Source: a virus. From it: a DNA stretch of 30,625 nt. Position 1 is the first letter of the stretch; the number at the start of each line of letters is the position of its first letter. The notes beneath the pieces are model-generated. The model worked only from the letters and a program-made list of their open reading frames with translations, did no database searches and was not told the origin of the DNA. This document shows, piece by piece, positions 4,954 to 19,243 of the stretch. Made by a program: the position numbers and the translations under genes. Location: the IMG/VR virus record IMGVR_UViG_3300021197_001363, positions 1 to 30,625 of that record; one strand, written 5' to 3'.

Positions 4954-5397
4954 TTATACTTCATGCCATGGTTCATTTTTAAATAGTAAACTTTCAGCCT
5001 CGCGTCTGCGTATCAATCCTTGGAGCGTTTCTCCTCCAGCCTTATTCCAGCGTTTCATTTCGCTTGGTACTTTTTCATACTCGCTGTTATTTAAAACTTT
5101 AAGCATGGTTGAGCTACGAAGGTTGGATCCACCAAGATTAAAAGTCCAGGCTACTAAAGCGTCAAATTGATTTTGCGAAAGGGGCACCTCAACACATTTG
5201 TTCACTTCTTCTTCAAAATCAGATACATCCTCTAGTAATAATGCCTCTGCTCTGTCCTGTGATATTTCCATATCCATAGTGACTCCGCGTGTTGATCCAT
5301 AACCAATGGTAGGTACTCCAGCGCTGCATTTATATGCTTGTAATTTACATCCCTCAAAGCGCTTAATAAGCGCGATGCCTTCTTGTGATATTTCCAT
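4954..5397 (-). CDS. Endolysin, GH24 lysozyme (muramidase)
   Basis: The 147-residue product cleaves peptidoglycan at the end of infection. The GH24 core is clear: E15 in RFEG, then AYKCSAGVPTIGYG, with T30 fifteen residues after the catalytic Glu, as in T4 lysozyme (E11/T26). At the position of T4 D20 there is C24, a substitution found in natural GH24 enzymes and tolerated in T4. I chose the ATG at 5397 because GGGGAG lies just upstream. A longer frame to 5499 would add 34 residues and overlap the nuclease gene without a better ribosome site. No signal peptide or SAR segment is present in this form, so export should depend on a holin, plausibly one of the membrane proteins at 11.2-12.3 kb. 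Confidence 0.92.
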   Translation of the reverse strand: MEISQEGIALIKRFEGCKLQAYKCSAGVPTIGYGSTRGVTMDMEISQDRAEALLLEDVSDFEEEVNKCVEVPLSQNQFDALVAWTFNLGGSNLRSSTMLKVLNNSEYEKVPSEMKRWNKAGGETLQGLIRRREAESLLFKNEPWHEV

Positions 5398-5398
5398 A

Positions 5399-5794
5399 TT
5401 ACTCTCCCCATTTTTTAACTTTTGTGCCGCCGTGATAATCGACAGCAAGATTTTGTTTTTTAAGTAAATCAGCGATGTTACCTTTTTCACAAAAGACATC
5501 CGCTAACACTCTCCCGTATTTATCTGTTCCATAAGATCTAATTGTAATATCTCCCACTAACCAATCTTTAAGTTTTTGTTTTGCTAGTAAACCAAGCTCT
5601 TTTTCTTTTGCTCTTTCCGGGTATCTTTTTATGTTGATCCTAGATTCTGGAGTATCAATCGAGTTGATTCGTACAGCTTTATTGTGTAATTGCACAGAGA
5701 AGCCTAGATCTATAGTTTCCAATCTGATAGTGTCTCCATCGGTTACGGATCTTAATTTACATTTATAAACAAAAGCGTCTGGTGACTTACTCAT
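5399..5794 (-). CDS. Staphylococcal nuclease-like (thermonuclease, SNase) protein
   Basis: The 131-residue protein matches the SNase/TNase fold. TDGDTIRL at about 18-25 gives the calcium-binding aspartates. RINSIDTPE carries R42, D47 and E50 with the spacing of R35, D40 and E43 in the staphylococcal enzyme. DKYGRVLADV supplies the second active-site arginine (about R95). It ends in a YHGGTK segment, also usual. It therefore looks catalytically intact and would be a Ca-dependent endonuclease acting on DNA or RNA. No signal peptide is seen, so it works in the cytoplasm or after lysis. It is embedded in the lysis cassette, overlapping the o-spanin stop by eight bases and ending two bases before the endolysin ATG. 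A role in degrading host nucleic acid late in infection is inferred. Confidence 0.88.
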   Translation of the reverse strand: MSKSPDAFVYKCKLRSVTDGDTIRLETIDLGFSVQLHNKAVRINSIDTPESRINIKRYPERAKEKELGLLAKQKLKDWLVGDITIRSYGTDKYGRVLADVFCEKGNIADLLKKQNLAVDYHGGTKVKKWGE

Positions 5795-6164
5795 TATTCT
5801 CTCCTGGTTTTGTTGTTACAGTTCTATAATACACAACCACTTCTTTCAGTTCTTTTATGTATCTTTTAAGCTCTTGCATGTTATACGCCATCAACTCGTA
5901 ATCGGGTACTGACATCGCAAAAAATACTACAGCTCCCTCTTCTTTTTCAACTCTTTGTAAAAACTCTTCTATATTTTTTTCTGATACCACATACCAATAT
6001 GGATCTTTGAGATCTACGGCCCTGGGCAATATCGGTTGCACGATATTTCTTTCAATCGGCTTTGTGATTATTTCTACTTTTTTACTTGGTATCAGGCTGC
6101 AACTGCAAGCCATCGTCAAGACTGTCAATGCCAACAGTGTCTTTTTCAATGCTATCAAATACAT
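5787..6164 (-). CDS. Outer-membrane spanin-like lipoprotein (Rz1-like)
   Basis: The chosen ATG at 6164 has AAAGGAA six bases upstream. It gives a 125-residue protein beginning MYLIALKKTLLALTV and continuing into TMACSCSLIPS, a lipoprotein signal with lipobox cysteine(s). The mature part has a short Pro-containing linker (VQPILPRAVD) and a predicted helical C-terminus (about 70-110). The gene begins inside the gene for the membrane-anchored coiled-coil protein in another frame (overlap 6082-6164), the classic Rz/Rz1 arrangement. With its partner it would fuse inner and outer membranes in the last step of lysis. It is longer than lambda Rz1, and no sequence identity to a known o-spanin was recognised, so the call rests on architecture and position. 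The frame extends to 6194, but without a ribosome site there. Confidence 0.7.
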   Translation of the reverse strand: MYLIALKKTLLALTVLTMACSCSLIPSKKVEIITKPIERNIVQPILPRAVDLKDPYWYVVSEKNIEEFLQRVEKEEGAVVFFAMSVPDYELMAYNMQELKRYIKELKEVVVYYRTVTTKPGENNE

Positions 6165-6477
6165 CTTTAGTTCCTTTGTTTGCCCTGGTTTCAATCAACC
6201 CAGGTTTTGCTATAGCTAATCTGGTTAGATTGTGACGTTTAAATATGTCCAGGTATCTACTCATTTCAGCTTCTATTTGTTGGTTTTTAGATTGTAAGTT
6301 TAGTAACGATGATGTTTGTAATTCAAAATCATTTTGTAAACTTTCTATGGCTGCCTTTTGTTCGGCGTCCCGGAGTTCAAAAGCATCATTTAGAGCAGAT
6401 AGTCTTGAGTTTTGCCAATACAATACCGAACATATAAAGACTAAAACCCCAATAACACCTAATAAAATTTTACTCAT
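6082..6477 (-). CDS. Inner-membrane spanin-like protein (Rz-like)
   Basis: The 131-residue protein starts with one N-terminal membrane anchor (MSKILLGVIGVLVFICSVLY). A Q/N/L-rich coiled coil follows (about 30-85) and then a conserved-looking segment around LTRLAIAKPGLIETRANKGT. This N-in, C-periplasmic topology is that of i-spanins. The downstream lipoprotein gene overlaps its 3' end out of frame. AAAAGGA precedes the ATG at 6477. The 55-bp gap upstream is one of the few spaces in this strand and contains a TGCAAAT-type element like those at other promoters here, so the lysis genes may have their own promoter. The lysis role is inferred from topology and neighbours. Confidence 0.75.
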   Translation of the reverse strand: MSKILLGVIGVLVFICSVLYWQNSRLSALNDAFELRDAEQKAAIESLQNDFELQTSSLLNLQSKNQQIEAEMSRYLDIFKRHNLTRLAIAKPGLIETRANKGTKDVFDSIEKDTVGIDSLDDGLQLQPDTK

Positions 6478-6532: not shown

Positions 6533-8305
6533 TTAATTATCTAACAACGTGTAAATTACGAGTGGTCTTTCTACACCTTTCACTCTAATTGGATCCAGCT
6601 CTCTTAAAGTGTAATCTGACTTCAAAGCTGTCGTTCTGCCTATGATTAGATCTACACCGACTTCCTTACAACTTGACTCAAGCCGGGCAGCTTCATTTAC
6701 CGGACTGCCTATGCAAGTGTAATCAAACCTGGTATCAGATCCCATATTTCCAACGATAGCTTCACCGCTATTTATTCCTATACCTATTGCAACTGGAGGT
6801 AATCCTTCTTCTTCTAGCTCTATATTTAGATCCTCCATATTCTTTTGCATTTGTATAGCACACTCGATTGCTTTGCTTTCATGGTTTTCTAGGTCCAAAG
6901 GAGCTGAGAAAACGGCCATAAGTGCATCGCCTATAAATTTATCTACCATTCCCCCATATTTTTTTACAGCCTCCACCTGGGCCGTTAAAGCTCGATTCAT
7001 TATATAGGTCACGTCTTCTGCGGACATTGACTCTGACATGGAAGTGAATCCCCGGACGTCTGTAAAAAGCACTGTTATGTAGCGCCTGGATCCTCCGAGC
7101 TGGAGAAGATCCGGATTATCCTGGAGCTGTTGGACCTGGCGTGGATCCAGGTAATGTTCAAATTGCTTTTTGATCTGCTGTCTAAGTATGTATTCTTCCC
7201 TGTATTTCAGATAATACGACGTGCTGCCAATTATGAATTGACTAATTAATGACCAGGTTACGTCCAATAACAAACCATCTTGTATGGTGTAATAGCCAAA
7301 TGCAGCCACAGAGCTGGCCGATATACCGAAGTATATCAATCCTACACTCATACTTAACTTTTGCGTTAGAAACCACGACATGAGCGCTAAGAGCACAAAT
7401 ATTGCTAACTCAGCTCCCAGGTGCCACTCAGGGATCCTGGGCGAGTCCTCGATTAATATTGACTCTGCTACAGCTGCTTGCAAATAGTGAGGGTACATCA
7501 AACCTTTGCTAGTGGGTACTTGAGGCATGATGCCGCCACCAGAGGTTCCTATTATGGTTATCTTGTCTTTGGCTCCGGATAGATCATCTAGTGTGATAAC
7601 TGGCGTATTAACATAAGAGATCCACTTTCTGTGTGCTGAATCTACTGATATAGGTGGCAGTGATGGCACTCGTATCTCACCATCACTCATATTTATAATA
7701 TAAGTGTCCGCCCCGGAGACTTTCTTAATTATTTCTATGGGAAGGCTTGGAGCGAATCCTGTTTCTGTACGCAACAACAAAGGATATTGTCGTACCAGGC
7801 CATCAACATCTGTAGGAGCGGATGCTACCCCCTGAGAGGCATTTTCTTTAAGTATATCTATGTTTTCTACTACACCCCTGGCTTCATATCCTCCTCCTGT
7901 ATCTTCTCCTAGAATGACTGTACCGACTGTTGGAGGGTAGTTGCCTGTATCTGATTCAAACATAGCCAGGACAGAAGGCCCATAGCTCAAGGCTTCTGCA
8001 AAGGCTTCGTCTCCTCCTAATCGATCCGGTTGTGGAAAGGTTAGGGCCCAGGCTTGTGAATAACTACCCGCATTGAGTAGATCTACCTGGATCTCAGCTA
8101 ATCTTCTCCTGGGTAAAGGCCAGCCACCTTCTTTTTCTATATCAGCCTCAGTTATATCTAGGATTACAAAGTTACCTGTAGGATCTTGTTCTTTTACAAA
8201 AGCATCAAATGTTTTGAGCTTGAGGATCTCTAAGGGTGTGAGCTGCATTAGCAAAGGCAGAGCCAAACCAATAAGTAGAGCTGGGAATATGTATTTTTTG
8301 TTCAA
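6533..8305 (-). CDS. CHASE2-domain class III adenylate cyclase (membrane sensor cyclase)
   Basis: The 590-residue protein has an N-terminal membrane helix (about 5-22), an extracytoplasmic CHASE2-type sensor (about 30-290, with FVILDITEADIEKEGGWPLPR), three further helices (about 296-366) and a C-terminal class III nucleotide cyclase domain (about 400-588). Catalytic residues look complete: metal-binding D416 (FTDVRGF) and D460 (DKFIGDALMAVF), K456, D528 and T530 in FDYTCIG, and N537 and R541 (NEAARLE). The Lys/Asp-Thr set suggests ATP as substrate and cAMP as product. The start is a TTG overlapping the FecR stop (TTGA), with AAGGA upstream. FecR-type and CHASE2-cyclase genes are often neighbours in bacteria as far as I recall, but an intact pair in a phage late operon is unusual. 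High CCWGG/GATC content suggests it is not a very recent acquisition. Confidence 0.93.
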   Translation of the reverse strand: MNKKYIFPALLIGLALPLLMQLTPLEILKLKTFDAFVKEQDPTGNFVILDITEADIEKEGGWPLPRRRLAEIQVDLLNAGSYSQAWALTFPQPDRLGGDEAFAEALSYGPSVLAMFESDTGNYPPTVGTVILGEDTGGGYEARGVVENIDILKENASQGVASAPTDVDGLVRQYPLLLRTETGFAPSLPIEIIKKVSGADTYIINMSDGEIRVPSLPPISVDSAHRKWISYVNTPVITLDDLSGAKDKITIIGTSGGGIMPQVPTSKGLMYPHYLQAAVAESILIEDSPRIPEWHLGAELAIFVLLALMSWFLTQKLSMSVGLIYFGISASSVAAFGYYTIQDGLLLDVTWSLISQFIIGSTSYYLKYREEYILRQQIKKQFEHYLDPRQVQQLQDNPDLLQLGGSRRYITVLFTDVRGFTSMSESMSAEDVTYIMNRALTAQVEAVKKYGGMVDKFIGDALMAVFSAPLDLENHESKAIECAIQMQKNMEDLNIELEEEGLPPVAIGIGINSGEAIVGNMGSDTRFDYTCIGSPVNEAARLESSCKEVGVDLIIGRTTALKSDYTLRELDPIRVKGVERPLVIYTLLDN

Positions 8306-9417
8306 TTTCCTTGCCTTATAGTTATTATGTTTGAGGATCCACCATTAACTTTAACAACGTGTTCTACCCCATTTTGAAACAATATAAGAGTGTATGCGCT
8401 TGATCCATCTAAGTCTAGGCGATAGGTATCTCCTACAGATCTACGAATACTTATCTGCTGGCCTGTAATAATCGTAGTTATCTGCGTATCTTTGTCCTGG
8501 CCAATATTAGTACCGGCTATAGTTATACCGGTTGCTATTTGATTTAGTTGATCCTCTTCTTCATCAATAGCCAGGGCATCAATAACATTTAAAAGATCCT
8601 CTAAAAAGTTCACATCCAGATAATTTATATCGAGCTCTGTAAACTCCAAATCCGCTTCATTATCCAAGAAGTCTTCTGCTAAGAAATCTATATCAAGATC
8701 TGAAAAGTCCAGATAATCTGCTGTGCCTTGTTGTTGTATTTCTTCTACAAGATCCTGGCGTTCTTGTGGAGGATTTACAATTAACATGTTGTCTATAAGT
8801 TCCAGTGATATGTCTAGTGTTACAGGTTTAGATGGCGCTTGGTTATAAGTCATAGCTGTGGTCGCTTGATAGGCTTGGTTTAGTATGACTTGTCCCATCG
8901 CTGTTTCTACTATTATCTCGCCTACTTTGCCGTCAGCACCAGGCAATAGAATCACCAACGAGGCGCCCGTCTCCGGGGTGGTAGTGATTGTAAAATCTGT
9001 TCCGCGCACATAAACGTCCGCAGATGGCGTCTGTATGCGTATTTTCTTTTTATTATTGAATTTACCTGTAACGAAACGAGCTGTCCCAGATGCAAAGCGT
9101 AAGGCCATTTCGCTCTTGGCTGGGTTTGGATCGTAGATGTAGCTGTTAATAACCAACTTACTGTGGTCCATTACTCGGACGACTGTTTCGTCTTCAAAGG
9201 TTATGGCCACAGCTCCAGATTGAGTTTTTACATTGTCCAGTTGTTGTATAGGAAAAGATAACTCTGCCCCATAAGGCTGATCTCTAACTACCTGTGCACT
9301 ACCTCTAAGCTCGCTTATGGAGCCAATATCAACATCCTGTGCTTGTGCCCTGATCGTTTTGGACCACACAGACAGTTGAAGTAGTAGTACCAGAACTAAG
9401 AATCTTGAGCCAGTCAT
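8302..9417 (-). CDS. Secreted FecR-domain protein with acidic repeat region
   Basis: The 371-residue protein begins with a signal peptide (hydrophobic 5-17, likely cut near RAQAQD at 24-28). The FecR domain spans about 55-160: LDNVKTQSGAVAITFEDETV, an L-I-N core, FASGTARFVTGKF and the hallmark IRIQTPSADVYVRGTDFTI. Residues about 235-290 form an Asp/Glu/Leu repeat region (LDFSDLDIDFL, ELDINYLDVNFL), possibly calcium-binding or amyloid-like. A C-terminal beta-rich part ends VVKVNGGSSNIITIRQGN. It should act in the periplasm or on the surface. It overlaps the curlin-like gene by 89 bp in another frame and the cyclase by 4 bp. A plausible role is to convey an envelope signal to the CHASE2 sensor of the next gene, which is inference. 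No ribosome site is clear at 9417. Confidence 0.85.
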   Translation of the reverse strand: MTGSRFLVLVLLLQLSVWSKTIRAQAQDVDIGSISELRGSAQVVRDQPYGAELSFPIQQLDNVKTQSGAVAITFEDETVVRVMDHSKLVINSYIYDPNPAKSEMALRFASGTARFVTGKFNNKKKIRIQTPSADVYVRGTDFTITTTPETGASLVILLPGADGKVGEIIVETAMGQVILNQAYQATTAMTYNQAPSKPVTLDISLELIDNMLIVNPPQERQDLVEEIQQQGTADYLDFSDLDIDFLAEDFLDNEADLEFTELDINYLDVNFLEDLLNVIDALAIDEEEDQLNQIATGITIAGTNIGQDKDTQITTIITGQQISIRRSVGDTYRLDLDGSSAYTLILFQNGVEHVVKVNGGSSNIITIRQGN

Positions 9418-10042
9418 TATCTAATGTTGATGATTGTGTAATATTAAATGTTCTATTAGATCCGTCGTGATCTAAGTAAAAATAGTTACCAGCATAACCC
9501 GAAGCTGCATGTGTCAAAGCATTATCATTACCATCTATATTAACGTAGTTAGTAGCTGAATCTGCATTTATGCTAGAGGTTATTGTGTTGCTGTTTCCAT
9601 TGATAATCCAATCTAAATCTAGCGTACTAGCTAATGCTGTTGTAGCGTGATTTAAAGTAAACGTATTGCTGTTACCAGTGACATCAACATTTACATTTGA
9701 CGAATCTGCCCCGTAAGTTGCTGTCTTATCGGTGTTCATGTTGAACGTATTGCTATTGCCGTCAAACTCAAAGAAGCCGATATAAGAATCCGAGACAATA
9801 TCGCCTAAGAACTTGTTAGAATCGCCTATCTGATTTATGTCTAGCAAACCGGCGGTGCCCGTGAATTTGAGCGCTGTCATTGAGCCGGCTGCTGCATCAG
9901 CACCACCGATTATGTTGCCAGATCCTAATTGCTCCAAATCTATGTTGGTGTTAGAAGCACCAGAAGATTGGTCCAGGAAGATCTCATTATCCGCAGCGTA
10001 AATGGGTGTTGATAAAAAGATTAATAATAAGAGTTTTTTCAT
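9329..10042 (-). CDS. Curlin-like repeat protein (putative CsgA-type fibre subunit or secretion substrate)
   Basis: The start at 10042 is fixed by GGAGGT seven bases upstream and overlaps the CsgG stop (ATGA). The 237-residue protein has a signal peptide (cut after IYA, residue 16). It then shows repeats with QxGxxN or GNSN cores: EQLGSGN (about 38), QIGDSNKF (71), FDGNSNTF (93), VTGNSNTF (121), INGNSNTI (148), IDGNDNAL (169) and HDGSNRTF (192), spaced about 21-28 residues. CsgA repeats are about 22 residues with QxGxxN turns, so a curlin-like beta-solenoid is likely. The tail has two cysteines (VCVVQNDQ and TGC). Asn/Ser/Thr-rich, low-Lys composition fits an extracellular amyloid or adhesin. 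Being third after csgF and csgG makes it their natural substrate. It is divergent, so fibre formation is not proven. Confidence 0.75.
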   Translation of the reverse strand: MKKLLLLIFLSTPIYAADNEIFLDQSSGASNTNIDLEQLGSGNIIGGADAAAGSMTALKFTGTAGLLDINQIGDSNKFLGDIVSDSYIGFFEFDGNSNTFNMNTDKTATYGADSSNVNVDVTGNSNTFTLNHATTALASTLDLDWIINGNSNTITSSINADSATNYVNIDGNDNALTHAASGYAGNYFYLDHDGSNRTFNITQSSTLDNDWLKILSSGTTTSTVCVVQNDQGTSTGC

Positions 10043-10842
10043 TGTTTGTACCTCCAATACCCTTGTGATATGCCTTGGTCTATTATATCTTTCACAGCTG
10101 TCTCGAGGGCCATCTGGAGAGCATAGGACATAGGCTCATTTTTTACTGCACCACCTTCTAATTCCACTAGCTCCGTATTGTCGCTAATGAATCTAAAGAC
10201 ATCGTTGTTAAGCGATGCCGATAAAACTTTTTTTGTTGTCATTGTTTCGATTAGCACTCTGCCTGTGCTTACAGAAACTAAACGTAAACTTACTGTAATT
10301 ATATCTTCACGATAACTTTTATCTGTTCCGATTCCAAGAAATCTTGCTCCCGCCCCCCCGGAGCTATTATTAGCTGAGTACGATAACACTCCCCCGGAAA
10401 TCACATTATCTGCGAACACCAGAGGCATGAGCTTTTGATCTTCGTCAAACGTATCACGAGTAGATCGTATGAGCTGTCTTTCTTTAGATACCGCTTCTAA
10501 CGCAACGCGCTCTACAACTTCAAAGAAACCAGAATGTTTTAGTACGCGTATTAGATAAGCATGTGGGGCCTGGGTTATGGCTGTGCTGAAAGTTGCATAA
10601 GTAGAGTTACTACGTCGTTGGCCAGTTTCGTCTTTGAAAGTATTAGGATAAACGGCTATGACAGGTTTTCTTACGGGTTCTGGTAAGTCTGCTAAATCAG
10701 TGTAAAGAACAACTAATTCTGGTTGTTCATACTTCTTTATCGGAGCAATGTTGTTTTCTATGGGATCAATCATTAGAGTACAACTGCTAAAAAGTAAAGC
10801 CGTTGAGAGGCACAATAACCTCTGTAACATTGCCCTCGGCAT
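10039..10842 (-). CDS. csgG: CsgG-family curli secretion channel (outer-membrane lipoprotein)
   Basis: About 267 residues, near the usual 277 of CsgG. It opens with a lipoprotein signal (MLQRLLCLSTALLFSSC) whose lipobox cysteine follows FSS. Clear CsgG features follow: RSNSTYATFSTAITQAPHAY, GFFEVVERV, the DNVISGGVLSYSANNSSGGA segment, the membrane-hairpin part GTDKSYREDIITVSLRL, and TGRVLIETMTTKKVLSASLN. E. coli CsgG forms a nonameric outer-membrane pore that exports curlins. The frame opens at 10869; I use the ATG at 10842, but 10830 with GAGGG nearby is equally possible. The 5' end overlaps csgF by about 55 bp. Neighbour CsgF and a curlin-like substrate support a working export unit; CsgE is not seen in the window. 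Confidence 0.93.
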   Translation of the reverse strand: MPRAMLQRLLCLSTALLFSSCTLMIDPIENNIAPIKKYEQPELVVLYTDLADLPEPVRKPVIAVYPNTFKDETGQRRSNSTYATFSTAITQAPHAYLIRVLKHSGFFEVVERVALEAVSKERQLIRSTRDTFDEDQKLMPLVFADNVISGGVLSYSANNSSGGAGARFLGIGTDKSYREDIITVSLRLVSVSTGRVLIETMTTKKVLSASLNNDVFRFISDNTELVELEGGAVKNEPMSYALQMALETAVKDIIDQGISQGYWRYKQ

Positions 10843-11263
10843 CTGTAATTGTAACTCTGACTGTTTCATCTGTTATCTCATATTCTATGGTATTTCCGTC
10901 AAGCTCCATAGAACCGAATTTGTTTGTGTTTTCTCCAAATAAAGAAGACTCTATTTGTCTCGCCAAATTTGCATAGATCCGGCTGGTAAGATTTCTCATA
11001 AACCGAGCCTCTACTGTATTTGTCTTGTCCCGCTCTAGCTTTTCAGCTAGGGCGGCTATCTCGTCCTTAATCGCCTGGGCCCGATTTGTCTCTTGATTCT
11101 CAATGGTCAAATAGTGTGAAGACGTGCCTTCACCACTAAAAGAAGGACTTTTAAATTTGTGCACCATTTCATCGGCTTGTACTGACAAAACAACAAACAT
11201 CACGATTATCATAGAAGCTATCAATAATACTTCATCAGGTCTTTTTTGATTTTTCATGCTCAT
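10787..11263 (-). CDS. csgF: CsgF-family curli assembly factor
   Basis: The 158-residue protein has a hydrophobic signal segment (13-28, cleavage likely after VQA at 30). It is followed by VHKFKSPSFSG at 34-44, equivalent to the N-terminal F-x-x-P-x-F-x-G peptide of CsgF that inserts into the CsgG pore. A helical middle carries RNLTSRIYANLARQIESSLFG. A beta-rich C-terminus follows (DGNTIEYEITDETVRVTITD and EVIVPL), matching the CsgF family order. E. coli CsgF (138 aa) lies at the cell surface and couples pore and nucleator. The gene overlaps both neighbours out of frame. Alternative ATGs at 11263 and 11257 are six bases apart and neither has a strong ribosome site. Assignment as CsgF is robust; its function in a phage is unknown. 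Confidence 0.92.
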   Translation of the reverse strand: MSMKNQKRPDEVLLIASMIIVMFVVLSVQADEMVHKFKSPSFSGEGTSSHYLTIENQETNRAQAIKDEIAALAEKLERDKTNTVEARFMRNLTSRIYANLARQIESSLFGENTNKFGSMELDGNTIEYEITDETVRVTITDAEGNVTEVIVPLNGFTF

Positions 11264-11504
11264 GTTTTTGTTTTTCTTGGTCTTTCAACCGAACAACAGT
11301 GTCAACTTTCTCCTTCAAGCGTATCATATCCTGGTCAAGTAGTCGAAGTTGGTCTGTGAGACGAATGATTGTGGTTTTCATTTCTTGCACAGCTGGATCT
11401 ATAGTTTTTGTGATAGTTTGCCAGACGAAAAAAACAAAATAACCTAAGCCTATAACCATGACTGTAGGGAAACCAAACTTTTGTACGAGCTCAACTATGT
11501 CCAT
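11235..11504 (-). CDS. Small one-helix membrane protein with coiled coil (paralogue of next gene upstream)
   Basis: The 89-residue protein has one N-terminal membrane helix (about 8-30, FPTVMVIGLGYFVFFVWQTI). A long charged coiled coil follows (about 38-89) and ends in a Lys/His/Glu-rich tail. Its layout and the GxP...GYFxF pattern match the 98-aa protein encoded just upstream, so the two are ancient tandem duplicates. AGGAGA precedes the ATG, which overlaps the upstream stop (TAATG). Lying next to the holin-like proteins and csgF, it may be part of the lysis machinery (antiholin or pinholin-like) or an inner-membrane partner of the secretion unit. No sequence feature decides between these. 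Confidence 0.75.
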   Translation of the reverse strand: MDIVELVQKFGFPTVMVIGLGYFVFFVWQTITKTIDPAVQEMKTTIIRLTDQLRLLDQDMIRLKEKVDTVVRLKDQEKQKHEHEKSKKT

Positions 11505-11800
11505 TAATCTCTCCTGGCATCAATCTTCCCGTCTTCTACAAAGTTTTCAGATCTGGCTATGCGGTCAAGATCCGGGGGTAAATTGAGTGCACTAGATACT
11601 ATGGTGTCTATGCGTATGATGTCGTTATTCATTATCGATGCTCTGGTAATCAGCATCGTAGTTATGCCCTGGACAGTTTTGATTTCTGATACCAAACCAT
11701 CCATAAGTTGTTTCATTATTAGGAATATGAAGTAGGCCATGATTAGGCCGCTTGCGATGGGTAGTCCTAGATCTCCTATAAGACCTATGGCCTGTTCCAT
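11504..11800 (-). CDS. Small one-helix membrane protein (paralogue of 11235-11504)
   Basis: The 98-residue protein has a membrane helix at about 12-32 (LGLPIASGLIMAYFIFLIMK). A helical cytoplasmic or periplasmic part includes ITTMLITRASIMNNDIIRID, and the C-terminus is charged. Compared with the following 89-aa gene it shares the GxPxxxxLIxxYFxF membrane segment and a matching NNDIIRIDTIV/DQDMIRLKEKV stretch at the same distance, which indicates duplication. Start and stop overlap both neighbours (TAATG). Size and context suit a holin or antiholin, but only a single membrane span is present. Confidence 0.75.
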   Translation of the reverse strand: MEQAIGLIGDLGLPIASGLIMAYFIFLIMKQLMDGLVSEIKTVQGITTMLITRASIMNNDIIRIDTIVSSALNLPPDLDRIARSENFVEDGKIDARRD

Positions 11801-12138
11801 TAGTCTTCGCCTTTGAACTTCTTACTTTGCCCGGATGTGCCCGCGTAGATTCCAAATACAGCTGCCATTGCGCCTACTACTATTGAGACTAAGCCAGCTT
11901 GCTCTAAGTTTGGTTCTGGTAAATCCATAAACCAAGTTACAACCTTATAAAGTAAAACAATATAAACACTTACAAATACTCTTGGAAATATTCTCCAGGC
12001 ATCAACTGTCCTGGCTAAGTGAATCCACTTTTGAAAAGGATTTTCACCTTGGTTGTGTGGGGTTACGTCAATGTCGAGCTCTAGTTTCTTTTTGATAACT
12101 GGCTCTACAGTTTTCTGGACGTTTACTTCTTCGTTCAT
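11800..12138 (-). CDS. Putative holin, two membrane helices
   Basis: The 112-residue protein has a hydrophilic N-terminus (1-45), then WRIFPRVFVSVYIVLLYKVV (about 49-68) and LVSIVVGAMAAVFGIYAGTS (about 83-102) as two membrane helices joined by a short DLPEP-containing loop, and a Lys/Asp tail. This two-helix pattern ending in GIYxGTS is common in phage proteins annotated as holins. A holin would release the signal-less endolysin encoded at 5.4 kb. It overlaps the genes on both sides (ATGA at 12135-12138, TAATG at 11800). Among the membrane proteins here it is the best holin candidate. Confidence 0.68.
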   Translation of the reverse strand: MNEEVNVQKTVEPVIKKKLELDIDVTPHNQGENPFQKWIHLARTVDAWRIFPRVFVSVYIVLLYKVVTWFMDLPEPNLEQAGLVSIVVGAMAAVFGIYAGTSGQSKKFKGED

Positions 12139-17549: not shown

Positions 17550-18338
17550 CTATGCGTGCTTGCCTTGGAACTTTCTCTTCAAGATTCTGTGGACTTTATG
17601 GTAGGGGAAGTCTTCATATCCAGGGTGTGAACTTTGGATCTGCCTGGCTATCTTCCTGGCACCCAGGCCTTTGTCTCTCAAGGCGTAGATGTGCTCCAAG
17701 ACCGCTTGTTCTTCCGGAATAGGAACCAACTTGGTTCTTCTTCTGCTACCAGAGTTGTCATACTCTTTTTTGTAACCAAAAGGCGTTTGTCCGCCAATCG
17801 AGTAACCCTTTTCTGCGTAGACAATCTTGCCGCCGTTTAGCCTGGACATAATCATTTCTCTCTCGATCTCCGCAAACTGTGCCATCAGAGTAATTAGTTG
17901 TTGATTGGCCATCCTGGTCATGTCCATCTTTGCCTCCAGGCCAGTCTTTTCTTTTTCCCTGGGTAGGACCACCGGTACATCTGCAAACTGATCGCAGAAG
18001 TAAAGTTTAATCCCAGACTCTTCCAGGGTAGGGATCATGTTGACCATTTCCAGGGTGCCCCTGGCAAGCCTGTCTAGTTTAGTGGCTACTATCACATCAT
18101 GCTTGTCCATGACGTCGGTGAGCTCCCTGGATCCAGGACGTTCGAGTAATGGCTTCATGCCGCTAATCCCGGCATCAGTGAAGAACTGATCGACCGGTCT
18201 GCCGCCATACTTGTTGGCCACGAACTCTTCTATGGATCTCTTTTGTTCTTCGAGTGAAGATCCATCCTTGGCCTGTTGCTCAGATGAAACTCTGATATAG
18301 CCGTAGATGTTATTGATTTGTTTTTTGGGTTGTATCAT
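17550..18338 (-). CDS. Small serine recombinase (resolvase/invertase family)
   Basis: The 262-residue protein has the resolvase N-terminal catalytic domain (about 11-150). The nucleophile lies in IYGYIRVSSEQQ (S18 after R16), followed by SLEEQKRSIEEFV, DAGISGMKPLLERPG and KLDRLARGTLEMV (87-99). The C-terminal part (about 195-262) is a short Recombinase/HTH-like DNA-binding region (EEQAVLEHIYALRDKGLGAR, KIARQI). It is larger than Tn3 resolvase but much smaller than phage serine integrases (450 residues or more), so inversion, resolution or an unusual integration role are all possible. It overlaps the methyltransferase stop by ATGA. No excisionase or repressor was seen in the window. Confidence 0.9.
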   Translation of the reverse strand: MIQPKKQINNIYGYIRVSSEQQAKDGSSLEEQKRSIEEFVANKYGGRPVDQFFTDAGISGMKPLLERPGSRELTDVMDKHDVIVATKLDRLARGTLEMVNMIPTLEESGIKLYFCDQFADVPVVLPREKEKTGLEAKMDMTRMANQQLITLMAQFAEIEREMIMSRLNGGKIVYAEKGYSIGGQTPFGYKKEYDNSGSRRRTKLVPIPEEQAVLEHIYALRDKGLGARKIARQIQSSHPGYEDFPYHKVHRILKRKFQGKHA

Positions 18339-19243
18339 GCTGCCTCCTGTATTGGTGTGAATGAATTACTGTTTTGAGCAAAGTATCTTCCTACTTCCTG
18401 GCCGGCCCATTCGCCCAGGGGAACTGAAACTCCGTTGCCAATCATCTTGTAAGCCTCGTTGTTGGTGCAATCGAACTTGTAGCTATCGGGTACTCCTTGC
18501 AATCTGGCATACTCTCTGACTGTGTAAGGTCTAACGCCACCCGGGAATCTTTTGTCCACCACAACCCTGGTGCTTCTGTCCTTGGCGTAGTGGGCCACAC
18601 AACATGGCGCGATGTCGCCTTTGTCCGGATCACTAATGATTGGTAGATCTCTGTACTTGCCGTTGAGTCTGTTGACCAAGGCCTTCGGATAATTAACGTC
18701 CGGATCTTTTTCCAGGATGTCCGCTAACTTGATTGGATTATTGAACACCGGTGCTCTCCAATTAAATGGTTTCTTAGATCCAATGATGATTAGCCTGTCT
18801 CTCTTTTGCGGCAACCAAGTTTCTGATTTGATCGGGCAAAACGTAGTGGTGTAGTAGTCAGGCAATCTAGTCATGGCCTCCATGACTACCTGGAACTTTC
18901 TCATTCCAGGAACATTCTCGATGATGAATATTTCGGGCCTGGCTATCGCCATGTGTCTGAACGCGTGAAGGAATAATTCCTCACCGGTCCTGGTCCCGTG
19001 AATATCTGCGATCGTAGAATACTTGGTGCATGGATAAGTGTAAGCGTGGATGTCTGATACCGGGCCATCCTCCACCAGCTTTTGCGTCAAGTCTGTCTCA
19101 AAGACTTTGAAGCCGTTATCTCTTTGGACCTGGCAAGCAATCGGATCCAGCTCGTAGCTTGCCTGGATGTCCAGGCCGGCATTGGCCAATCCTATGTCGA
19201 GCAAGCCGGCTCCAGAAAAATAAGAATTGCAAGTTATTGTCAT
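18335..19243 (-). CDS. DNA (cytosine-5) methyltransferase
   Basis: The 302-residue enzyme has the full C5-MTase motif series: FSGAGLLDIGL (motif I, SAM binding, 9-19), YPCTKYS with catalytic Cys72 (IV), IENVPGM (VI, 108-114), QKRDRLIIIG (VIII), RPYTVREYARLQGVPD (IX) and MIGNGVSVPLG (X). The target-recognition region between VIII and IX is short (about 190-225), so it is a compact single-specificity enzyme. No cognate endonuclease lies beside it, so it is probably an orphan that protects phage DNA from host restriction or marks it. It sits between a small acidic protein and the recombinase with ATGA overlaps. The target is unknown, but the whole window is strikingly rich in CCWGG. Confidence 0.95.
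   Translation of the reverse strand: MTITCNSYFSGAGLLDIGLANAGLDIQASYELDPIACQVQRDNGFKVFETDLTQKLVEDGPVSDIHAYTYPCTKYSTIADIHGTRTGEELFLHAFRHMAIARPEIFIIENVPGMRKFQVVMEAMTRLPDYYTTTFCPIKSETWLPQKRDRLIIIGSKKPFNWRAPVFNNPIKLADILEKDPDVNYPKALVNRLNGKYRDLPIISDPDKGDIAPCCVAHYAKDRSTRVVVDKRFPGGVRPYTVREYARLQGVPDSYKFDCTNNEAYKMIGNGVSVPLGEWAGQEVGRYFAQNSNSFTPIQEAA

Follow-up and report, generated by a model that had tools for sequence, protein, structure and literature searches.

We analysed a fragment of 30,625 bases from the IMG/VR virus record IMGVR_UViG_3300021197_001363 (hereafter the window, that is, the whole stretch of DNA studied), which carries five consecutive minus-strand genes for a CsgF homologue, a CsgG homologue, a curlin-like repeat protein, a FecR-domain protein and an adenylate cyclase with a CHASE2 sensor. 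Open reading frames (ORFs) confirmed that the five genes are intact and mutually overlapping, as a first-pass annotation of this DNA had described, and the Pfam matches given below bear out the identities that it had assigned to CsgF, CsgG, FecR, CHASE2 and the cyclase domain. Judged from its TerL (62% identity to phage 023Pt_psg01) and portal protein (47% identity to HTVC027P), the window phage is related to podoviruses of the HTVC023P type. In nine such podoviruses, CsgF, CsgG, CsgA/B and FecR, often with a second CsgA/B and an adenylate cyclase, are reported in the available text of a 2022 study (PMC9599517); the five-gene set itself is therefore already known in such phages, and the annotation's suggestion that nobody had described it in full before falls. 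What appears from our sequence comparisons to be new is the presence of two small upstream membrane proteins (smA and smB) without a kinase match, a curlin tail on FecR, the co-segregation of the N-terminal part of FecR (N-part) with the cyclase, and the proximity of lysis genes; the annotation had the five genes right but overlooked the two small genes, the tail and the surrounding lysis genes. We consider it probable that FecR is a two-part envelope adaptor that joins the fibre module to the CHASE2 cyclase. The genes of the cassette are as follows.

11504..11800, minus strand: smB, small membrane protein of 98 amino acids (phrog_18771, E = 8.9e-23)
11235..11504, minus strand: smA, small membrane protein of 89 amino acids, paralogue of smB (phrog_18771, E = 4.5e-24; alignment)
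10787..11263, minus strand: CsgF homologue (Pfam CsgF, E = 2.6e-19)
10039..10869, minus strand: homologue of the outer-membrane pore lipoprotein CsgG (Pfam CsgG, E = 2.9e-48)
9329..10042, minus strand: curlin-like repeat protein, probable exported fibre subunit (fold model and relatives; ATG start)
8302..9417, minus strand: FecR-domain protein (Pfam FecR, E = 5.3e-12, residues 62–148)
6533..8305, minus strand: CHASE2 sensor with class III adenylate cyclase (Pfam CHASE2, E = 3.4e-28; Guanylate_cyc, E = 1.8e-19)

Ratios of non-synonymous to synonymous substitution rates (dN/dS) were 0.02 to 0.19 for CsgF, CsgG, the repeat protein, FecR and the cyclase when compared with four relatives (L006, L008, L009 and L013), the exception being CsgF of L009, which shows zero amino-acid changes.

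FecR with a C-terminal curlin half-repeat

Relatives of the cassette are common in virus collections: two scans with FecR returned 305 and at least 504 relatives in overlapping sets, the best 80 loci of each were examined, and the 156 FecR-found loci (L090–L245) include four that had already been sampled (HTVC008M, that is, L090, together with L178, L179 and L183). By inspection, the N-terminus of the window FecR reads as a signal peptide. Its C-terminal end has the form GxxN-x-h-x-h-x-Q, which is shared by curlin proteins from these cassettes and which we take to be a curlin half-repeat. Among 130 distinct complete FecR proteins from the FecR-found loci, 129 carry this motif within the last 16 residues (71 in the strict form and the others with S or T replacing N), L143 being the sole protein without it, and a YxhxhxQ strand lies 15–35 residues ahead of the C-terminal end in 129/130. 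Chance was rejected as an explanation, given that none of 1134 other ORFs ends in the motif, strict or relaxed, and that a looser form ends one of them; elsewhere than at the end, the strict motif occurs in 1 and the relaxed motif in 14 of these ORFs. An earlier sample had the strict motif in 29 of 40 FecR ORFs, some of the remaining 11 being cut by contig ends. The FecR-type terminal motif is also present in all three second repeat proteins found in cassettes.

With a signal peptide, a FecR domain and a curlin tail, and with no anti-sigma part seen, the protein as read from its sequence differs from the known kind of FecR; the literature searched yielded no FecR carrying a curlin repeat, and the available portions of PMC9599517 mention no such tail. 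That study ties FecR to curli as an iron-dependent regulator, a role in keeping with the presence of the Pfam FecR domain. We regard regulation of the cassette by iron through FecR as highly improbable, given that the FecR proteins of the window, HTVC008M and Melnitz match PF04773 alone when hits up to E = 10 are admitted, without any anti-sigma family, that the N-terminus looks like a signal peptide and that the curlin tail is near-invariant.

The FecR N-part and the cyclase segregate together

The cyclase is missing from 9/43 evaluable podovirus-type loci in a first set and from 4/47 in a second, which allows its presence to be compared with the history of each neighbouring gene. We used 115 podovirus-type FecR proteins of at least 330 amino acids with known cyclase status, excluding L026, the frames of which are split, and any locus lacking a CsgG or a repeat protein of sufficient length; this gave 93 rows including near-copies, used for sliding windows, and 77 rows (10 without cyclase) after identical ones were dropped, used for trees, which were quick searches with LG+G4 or FastTree. 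On the trees, cyclase presence or absence changes once for the FecR N-part, 6 times for the C-terminal part of FecR (C-part), 8 times for CsgG and 10 times for the repeat protein. In the N-part tree the cyclase-less rows form one side of a single branch with a Shimodaira–Hasegawa-like approximate likelihood ratio test (SH-aLRT) value of 100, whereas a single cyclase-less clade is rejected by the approximately unbiased test (p-AU) for CsgG (4.7e-41), the repeat protein (2.0e-6) and the FecR C-part (2.7e-5). Sliding windows of 70 residues locate the signal: FecR residues 21–250 give one change (two in one of nine windows), the next two windows 3–4 and those beyond residue 240 6–7, compared with 4 in the opening window of FecR, which includes the signal peptide, and 7–11 across CsgF, CsgG and the repeat protein. 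Individual pairs illustrate the same pattern: L027, which lacks the cyclase, and L024, which has it, share 95% in the C-terminus but 63% in the N-terminal domain; for L015 and L018, neither of which has a cyclase, the corresponding values are 83% and 97%.

Physical linkage alone explains this poorly, because the FecR C-part separates the N-part from the cyclase gene. The better explanation of these sequence patterns would be that the FecR domain and the cyclase are functionally coupled, and the co-segregation lends indirect support to the guess of the first-pass annotation that FecR signals through CHASE2. Such coupling agrees with how often FecR and CHASE2 genes are neighbours in bacteria, where, as a raw count, 40 of 119 CHASE2 matches in 115 genomes have FecR within 5 kb (one of the 40 on a phage-like contig), and with the Burkholderia BiofilmReg operon. 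The available description of that operon (PMC5192318) likewise has a secreted FecR-domain protein adjoining a CHASE2 membrane sensor, but its CHASE2 protein is a histidine kinase and its FecR carries LysM.

The co-segregation also bears on the proposal, versions of which appear in the accessible text of PMC7029224 and PMC9599517, that the cassette makes only a curli-like fibre, displayed by the infected cell, which would clump cells together or exclude superinfecting phage ('sibling capture'), with FecR as a nucleator or anchor and the cyclase optional. The near constancy of sm, CsgF, CsgG, repeat protein and FecR, set beside the absences of the cyclase given above, speaks for this proposal; it leaves unexplained, however, why the FecR N-part, and not the C-part, tracks the cyclase, and we consider it unlikely.

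The cyclase itself appears to be catalytically equipped, as the first-pass annotation had held, with all six catalytic positions present (D416, K456, D460, T530, N537 and R541). Presumably these are the two metal-binding Asp, the substrate Lys and Thr, and the transition-state Asn and Arg. Among 25 distinct cyclases D, K, D and R are found in 25/25, N in 23 and T in 20. A PADLOC match to PycC (E = 5.8e-30) we read from the sequence as a general class III resemblance: Pycsar cyclases share the class III cyclase domain, but the window cyclase additionally has CHASE2 and membrane segments, and no other defence family was matched among the seven cassette proteins scanned with PADLOC. In three loci (L038, L039 and L041) a further gene is inserted directly after the cyclase, and its product starts with GLPRSRTAW, which to us resembles a sulfotransferase P-loop.

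The fibre module and the small membrane proteins

The order sm, CsgF, CsgG, repeat protein, FecR recurs, as far as the contigs reach, in 46 CsgG-found viral contigs, some of which lack the cyclase, and in two isolates (HTVC008M and Melnitz) that have one extra gene ahead of the cyclase; a chimera or assembly artefact, against which a neighbourhood survey had been proposed, was rejected on these grounds. It recurs in the FecR-found loci as well: where the upstream sequence reaches far enough, and with FecR duplicates left out, CsgG and CsgF were found in 52/52 myovirus-type and 34/34 podovirus-type loci, and the repeat gene was present in 56/56 and 50/52, respectively.

CsgG of the window matches solved CsgG chains at E = 5e-40, which we take to be those of E. 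coli, and the lipobox that had been noted in it holds up, with Cys30 invariant among 12 aligned sequences. The repeat protein is divergent. The Pfam curlin family gave zero matches to it even at E up to 10; for the first repeat protein of HTVC008M Curlin_rpt reached E = 1.1, and the second such protein was positive in both HTVC008M (5.2e-8) and Melnitz (1.9e-4). AlphaFold2 predicts a beta-solenoid with a predicted local distance difference test score (pLDDT) of 84.8, in which five of seven GxxN turns sit exactly between two strands. Of the four highest-ranking matches among the BFVD viral models, three carry the name 'Curlin associated' (best E = 5.7e-7), and tblastn links the protein to an HTVC008M gene annotated as curlin-associated (E = 5e-5). 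The seven GxxN turns compare with a shuffle mean of 2.8 (214/20,000 shuffles as high), and three strand–turn–strand patterns with 0.12 (58/20,000 as high); as the enrichment in GxxN is only moderate, the curlin-like call is carried by the fold and the relatives. A Foldseek search of the PDB returned nothing at E = 0.001 or better, and VIA-align returned beta-helix matches (for example, a SufBCD chain at Z = 17.9) with curlin absent among the 50 matches listed, which excludes nothing. The earlier curlin-like assignment thus stands on the predicted fold and the 'Curlin associated' matches but not on the Pfam curlin repeat, and the product of 9329–10042 is a probable exported curlin-like fibre subunit by modelling. 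In HTVC008M, the second repeat protein (L002 10638–11963) combines Pfam-positive curlin repeats with a PA14 domain in one chain and is possibly an adhesive fibre tip.

Upstream of CsgF, smA and smB (11235–11504 and 11504–11800) appear by sequence to belong to the cassette, the core of which is thus wider than five genes, because sm genes are present in all evaluable FecR-found relatives with enough upstream sequence (51/51 myovirus-type and 31/31 podovirus-type). A tblastn search with smB (E up to 1) across 50,697 phage records matched solely the six cassette-bearing records. By inspection, smB has an N-terminal hydrophobic helix followed by a coiled-coil-like region, and 18 aligned sm proteins are 88–118 amino acids long with one N-terminal hydrophobic stretch each. 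No kinase (HisKA/HATPase) was seen for these 18 proteins among 25 of 27 Pfam families matched at E up to 1. The accessible text of PMC9599517 describes a 'histidine kinase' gene that precedes the module, and from position, number ('sometimes two') and shortness this is probably the sm gene; our family searches do not support the label.

Lysis genes around the cassette

The cassette lies within an array of 13 genes (12317 to 4954) with no gap above 55 bases, in the order 60-amino-acid protein, putative holin, smB, smA, CsgF, CsgG, repeat protein, FecR, cyclase, two spanins, SNase-like nuclease and endolysin. The flanking genes with family assignments are:

11800..12138, minus strand: putative holin (weak), adjoining the cassette upstream (phrog_10198; phrog_9990, E = 0.0013; hydrophobic C-terminal half)
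6082..6477, minus strand: i-spanin, Rz-like (phrog_739 lysis, E = 1.6e-10)
5787..6194, minus strand: Rz-like spanin, probably the outer-membrane partner (phrog_812 lysis, E = 7.9e-12)
5399..5794, minus strand: SNase-like nuclease (Pfam SNase, E = 2.8e-9; phrog_452 endonuclease, E = 7.4e-26)
4954..5499, minus strand: endolysin (phrog_7 endolysin, E = 1e-60)

Among podovirus-type loci with at least one flank (three of 49 without flanks were left out), 42/46 have a lysis-type gene (putative holin, spanin or endolysin) close to the cassette, at most 1.5 kb away on its upstream side or 2.5 kb on its downstream side, 30 through a downstream spanin or endolysin and 12 on a putative holin alone; in the other four, one flank only is visible. 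In the second set, lysis models were matched in 47/53 podovirus-type versus 3/49 myovirus-type loci. As to the holin assignment, phrog_9990 is common to the putative holin of the window and to a putative holin family (c7) that stands directly ahead of the endolysin in 20 loci and, in a Vibrio phage, next to a gene for a DD-peptidase. No family matching either protein is named a holin, and two relatives of the window protein have zero annotated lysis genes around them.

This setting, with its tightly packed array in the window, favours a role in lysis, as proposed for Melnitz in the accessible text of PMC9004378: the CsgG–CsgF pore, perhaps with cyclic AMP (cAMP), would open the envelope or time its opening, and the sm and repeat proteins would act in the envelope without a surface fibre. 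CsgG acts as an outer-membrane pore, however, whereas holins act in the inner membrane. Myovirus-type cassettes, moreover, lie mostly away from lysis genes, and the lysis proposal gives neither the curlin-like protein nor the FecR tail a role, which leaves it, to our mind, quite unlikely. The same neighbourhood counts against the proposal of a fibre alone, given that late expression together with the adjoining lysis genes, if it occurs, would leave a fibre little time to act. The SNase-like nuclease gene (window 5399–5794) is repeatedly close to lysis and curli genes in many podovirus-type loci.

Comparison with known systems

The closest counterpart is the pelagiphage type VIII secretion module, described in the available parts of PMC7029224 and PMC9599517, the genes and order of which are as in the window and which occurs in the same podovirus group; the window, by comparison, is without a second curlin gene. 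Of these sources, PMC7029224 (2020) gives a csgF/csgG operon in pelagimyophages and calls the function of the cluster unclear, PMC9599517 adds that the genes occur in pelagimyophages too and are expressed in metatranscriptomes, and PMC9004378 (2022) models CsgG and CsgF of Melnitz. Versions of fibre display, superinfection exclusion, nutrient entry and a lysis aid are proposed across the three, as far as their available text goes. The labels 'histidine kinase' and 'iron-dependent regulator' of PMC9599517 fit neither the small proteins nor the FecR of the window, and would misdirect experiments if retained.

E. coli curli (csgBAC/csgDEFG) shares with the window CsgG, CsgF and a repeat protein having GxxN turns, but the window has a divergent curlin-like protein instead of CsgA/B, to which FecR, the cyclase and the sm proteins are added. 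The absence of CsgE, CsgC and CsgD asserted by the first-pass annotation is borne out by a Pfam scan of 20 window proteins, which matched none of the three; as the window is only a fragment, this has limited bearing on the phage as a whole. A 1.5 kb contig labelled 'Salmonella phage' (L004 1–1499) has a CsgG very close, by eye, to the enterobacterial one and is probably host DNA.

Within the class to which the Maricaulis bin belongs, taken to be Alphaproteobacteria, CsgF was found in 5/289 genomes, comprising three cellular loci, one case via two phage-like contigs and one below the family cut-off. The cellular loci share the csgF–csgG order with the window, and a curlin-like gene is near two of the three (L066 by tblastn and L067 by eye). 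In the 19.5 kb covered by tblastn, no FecR, cyclase or sm homologue was found at any of these three csgFG loci, in agreement with PMC9599517 as far as available; Pfam FecR and CHASE2 matches of two of these genomes (G071 and G100) are located away from csgFG. An alignment search of bacterial genomes with CsgG gave six loci (L051–L056), four of them with the phage-type cassette order and two (L051 and L056) with virion genes, and a search with the window FecR matched 79 stretches, zero of them relatives. The contigs of the six loci have been placed in genome bins of Maricaulis, Rhodobacteraceae, Flavobacteriaceae and Pelagibacter, and such phage-type cassettes in bacterial bins can mislead searches for a bacterial origin of the module.

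Proposed model

We suggest that the infected cell exports the curlin-like beta-solenoid protein via the CsgG–CsgF pore. The FecR N-part (about residues 21–250, with the FecR domain inside) would work with the periplasmic CHASE2 sensor of the inner-membrane cyclase, which it would set where the cassette has one, and the C-part, with its terminal curlin half-repeat, may join, seed or anchor the curlin-like subunit. That the tail serves as a nucleator or anchor, including in cyclase-less cassettes, is a real possibility though not one to count on, and a sensing of export into cAMP is put forward more tentatively. Most doubtful of these is a full relay from fibre to second messenger, in which the tail would join or sense fibre assembly and the N-half would pass this to the CHASE2 cyclase, such that the phage reads envelope or export status and sets cAMP, perhaps timing lysis.

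Several observations weigh against the adaptor reading. None of 20 bacterial FecR ORFs beside CHASE2 ends in the curlin motif (one internal match lies in a low-complexity stretch, and the extent of several of these ORFs is unclear). AlphaFold2 gave mostly pLDDT <40 in the C-terminal half of FecR, so that a confident tail structure was not obtained, and the best of five models alone was usable (means 52.7, then 38 to 31). FecR and its tail are retained in cassettes without a cyclase, and therefore cAMP sensing cannot be the sole role of FecR. Furthermore, the spread of one N-part allele by recombination, combined with separate loss of the cyclase, could mimic coupling. The adaptor reading nevertheless gives a testable wiring, in which one part of FecR is paired with the cyclase and the other with the fibre, and a secreted FecR that ends in a curlin repeat could represent a new coupling in Gram-negative cells between an extracellular fibre and an intracellular messenger.

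Other features of the window

Scans of the window gave 15 promoters versus 22.2 in shuffles and 7 terminators versus 6.0. Its G+C (guanine plus cytosine) content is 41.7%, versus 34.4% for HTVC023P and 33.5% for HTVC008M in the stretches read of both, from which the host may not be SAR11. Tail-fibre inversion by a serine recombinase was considered and set aside, none of the 15 inverted-repeat pairs in the window being compelling. Serine recombinase and DNA methyltransferase genes lie near the tail-fibre region (window 17550–19243), the recombinase also occurring in L008, and the phage could be temperate or phase-variable.

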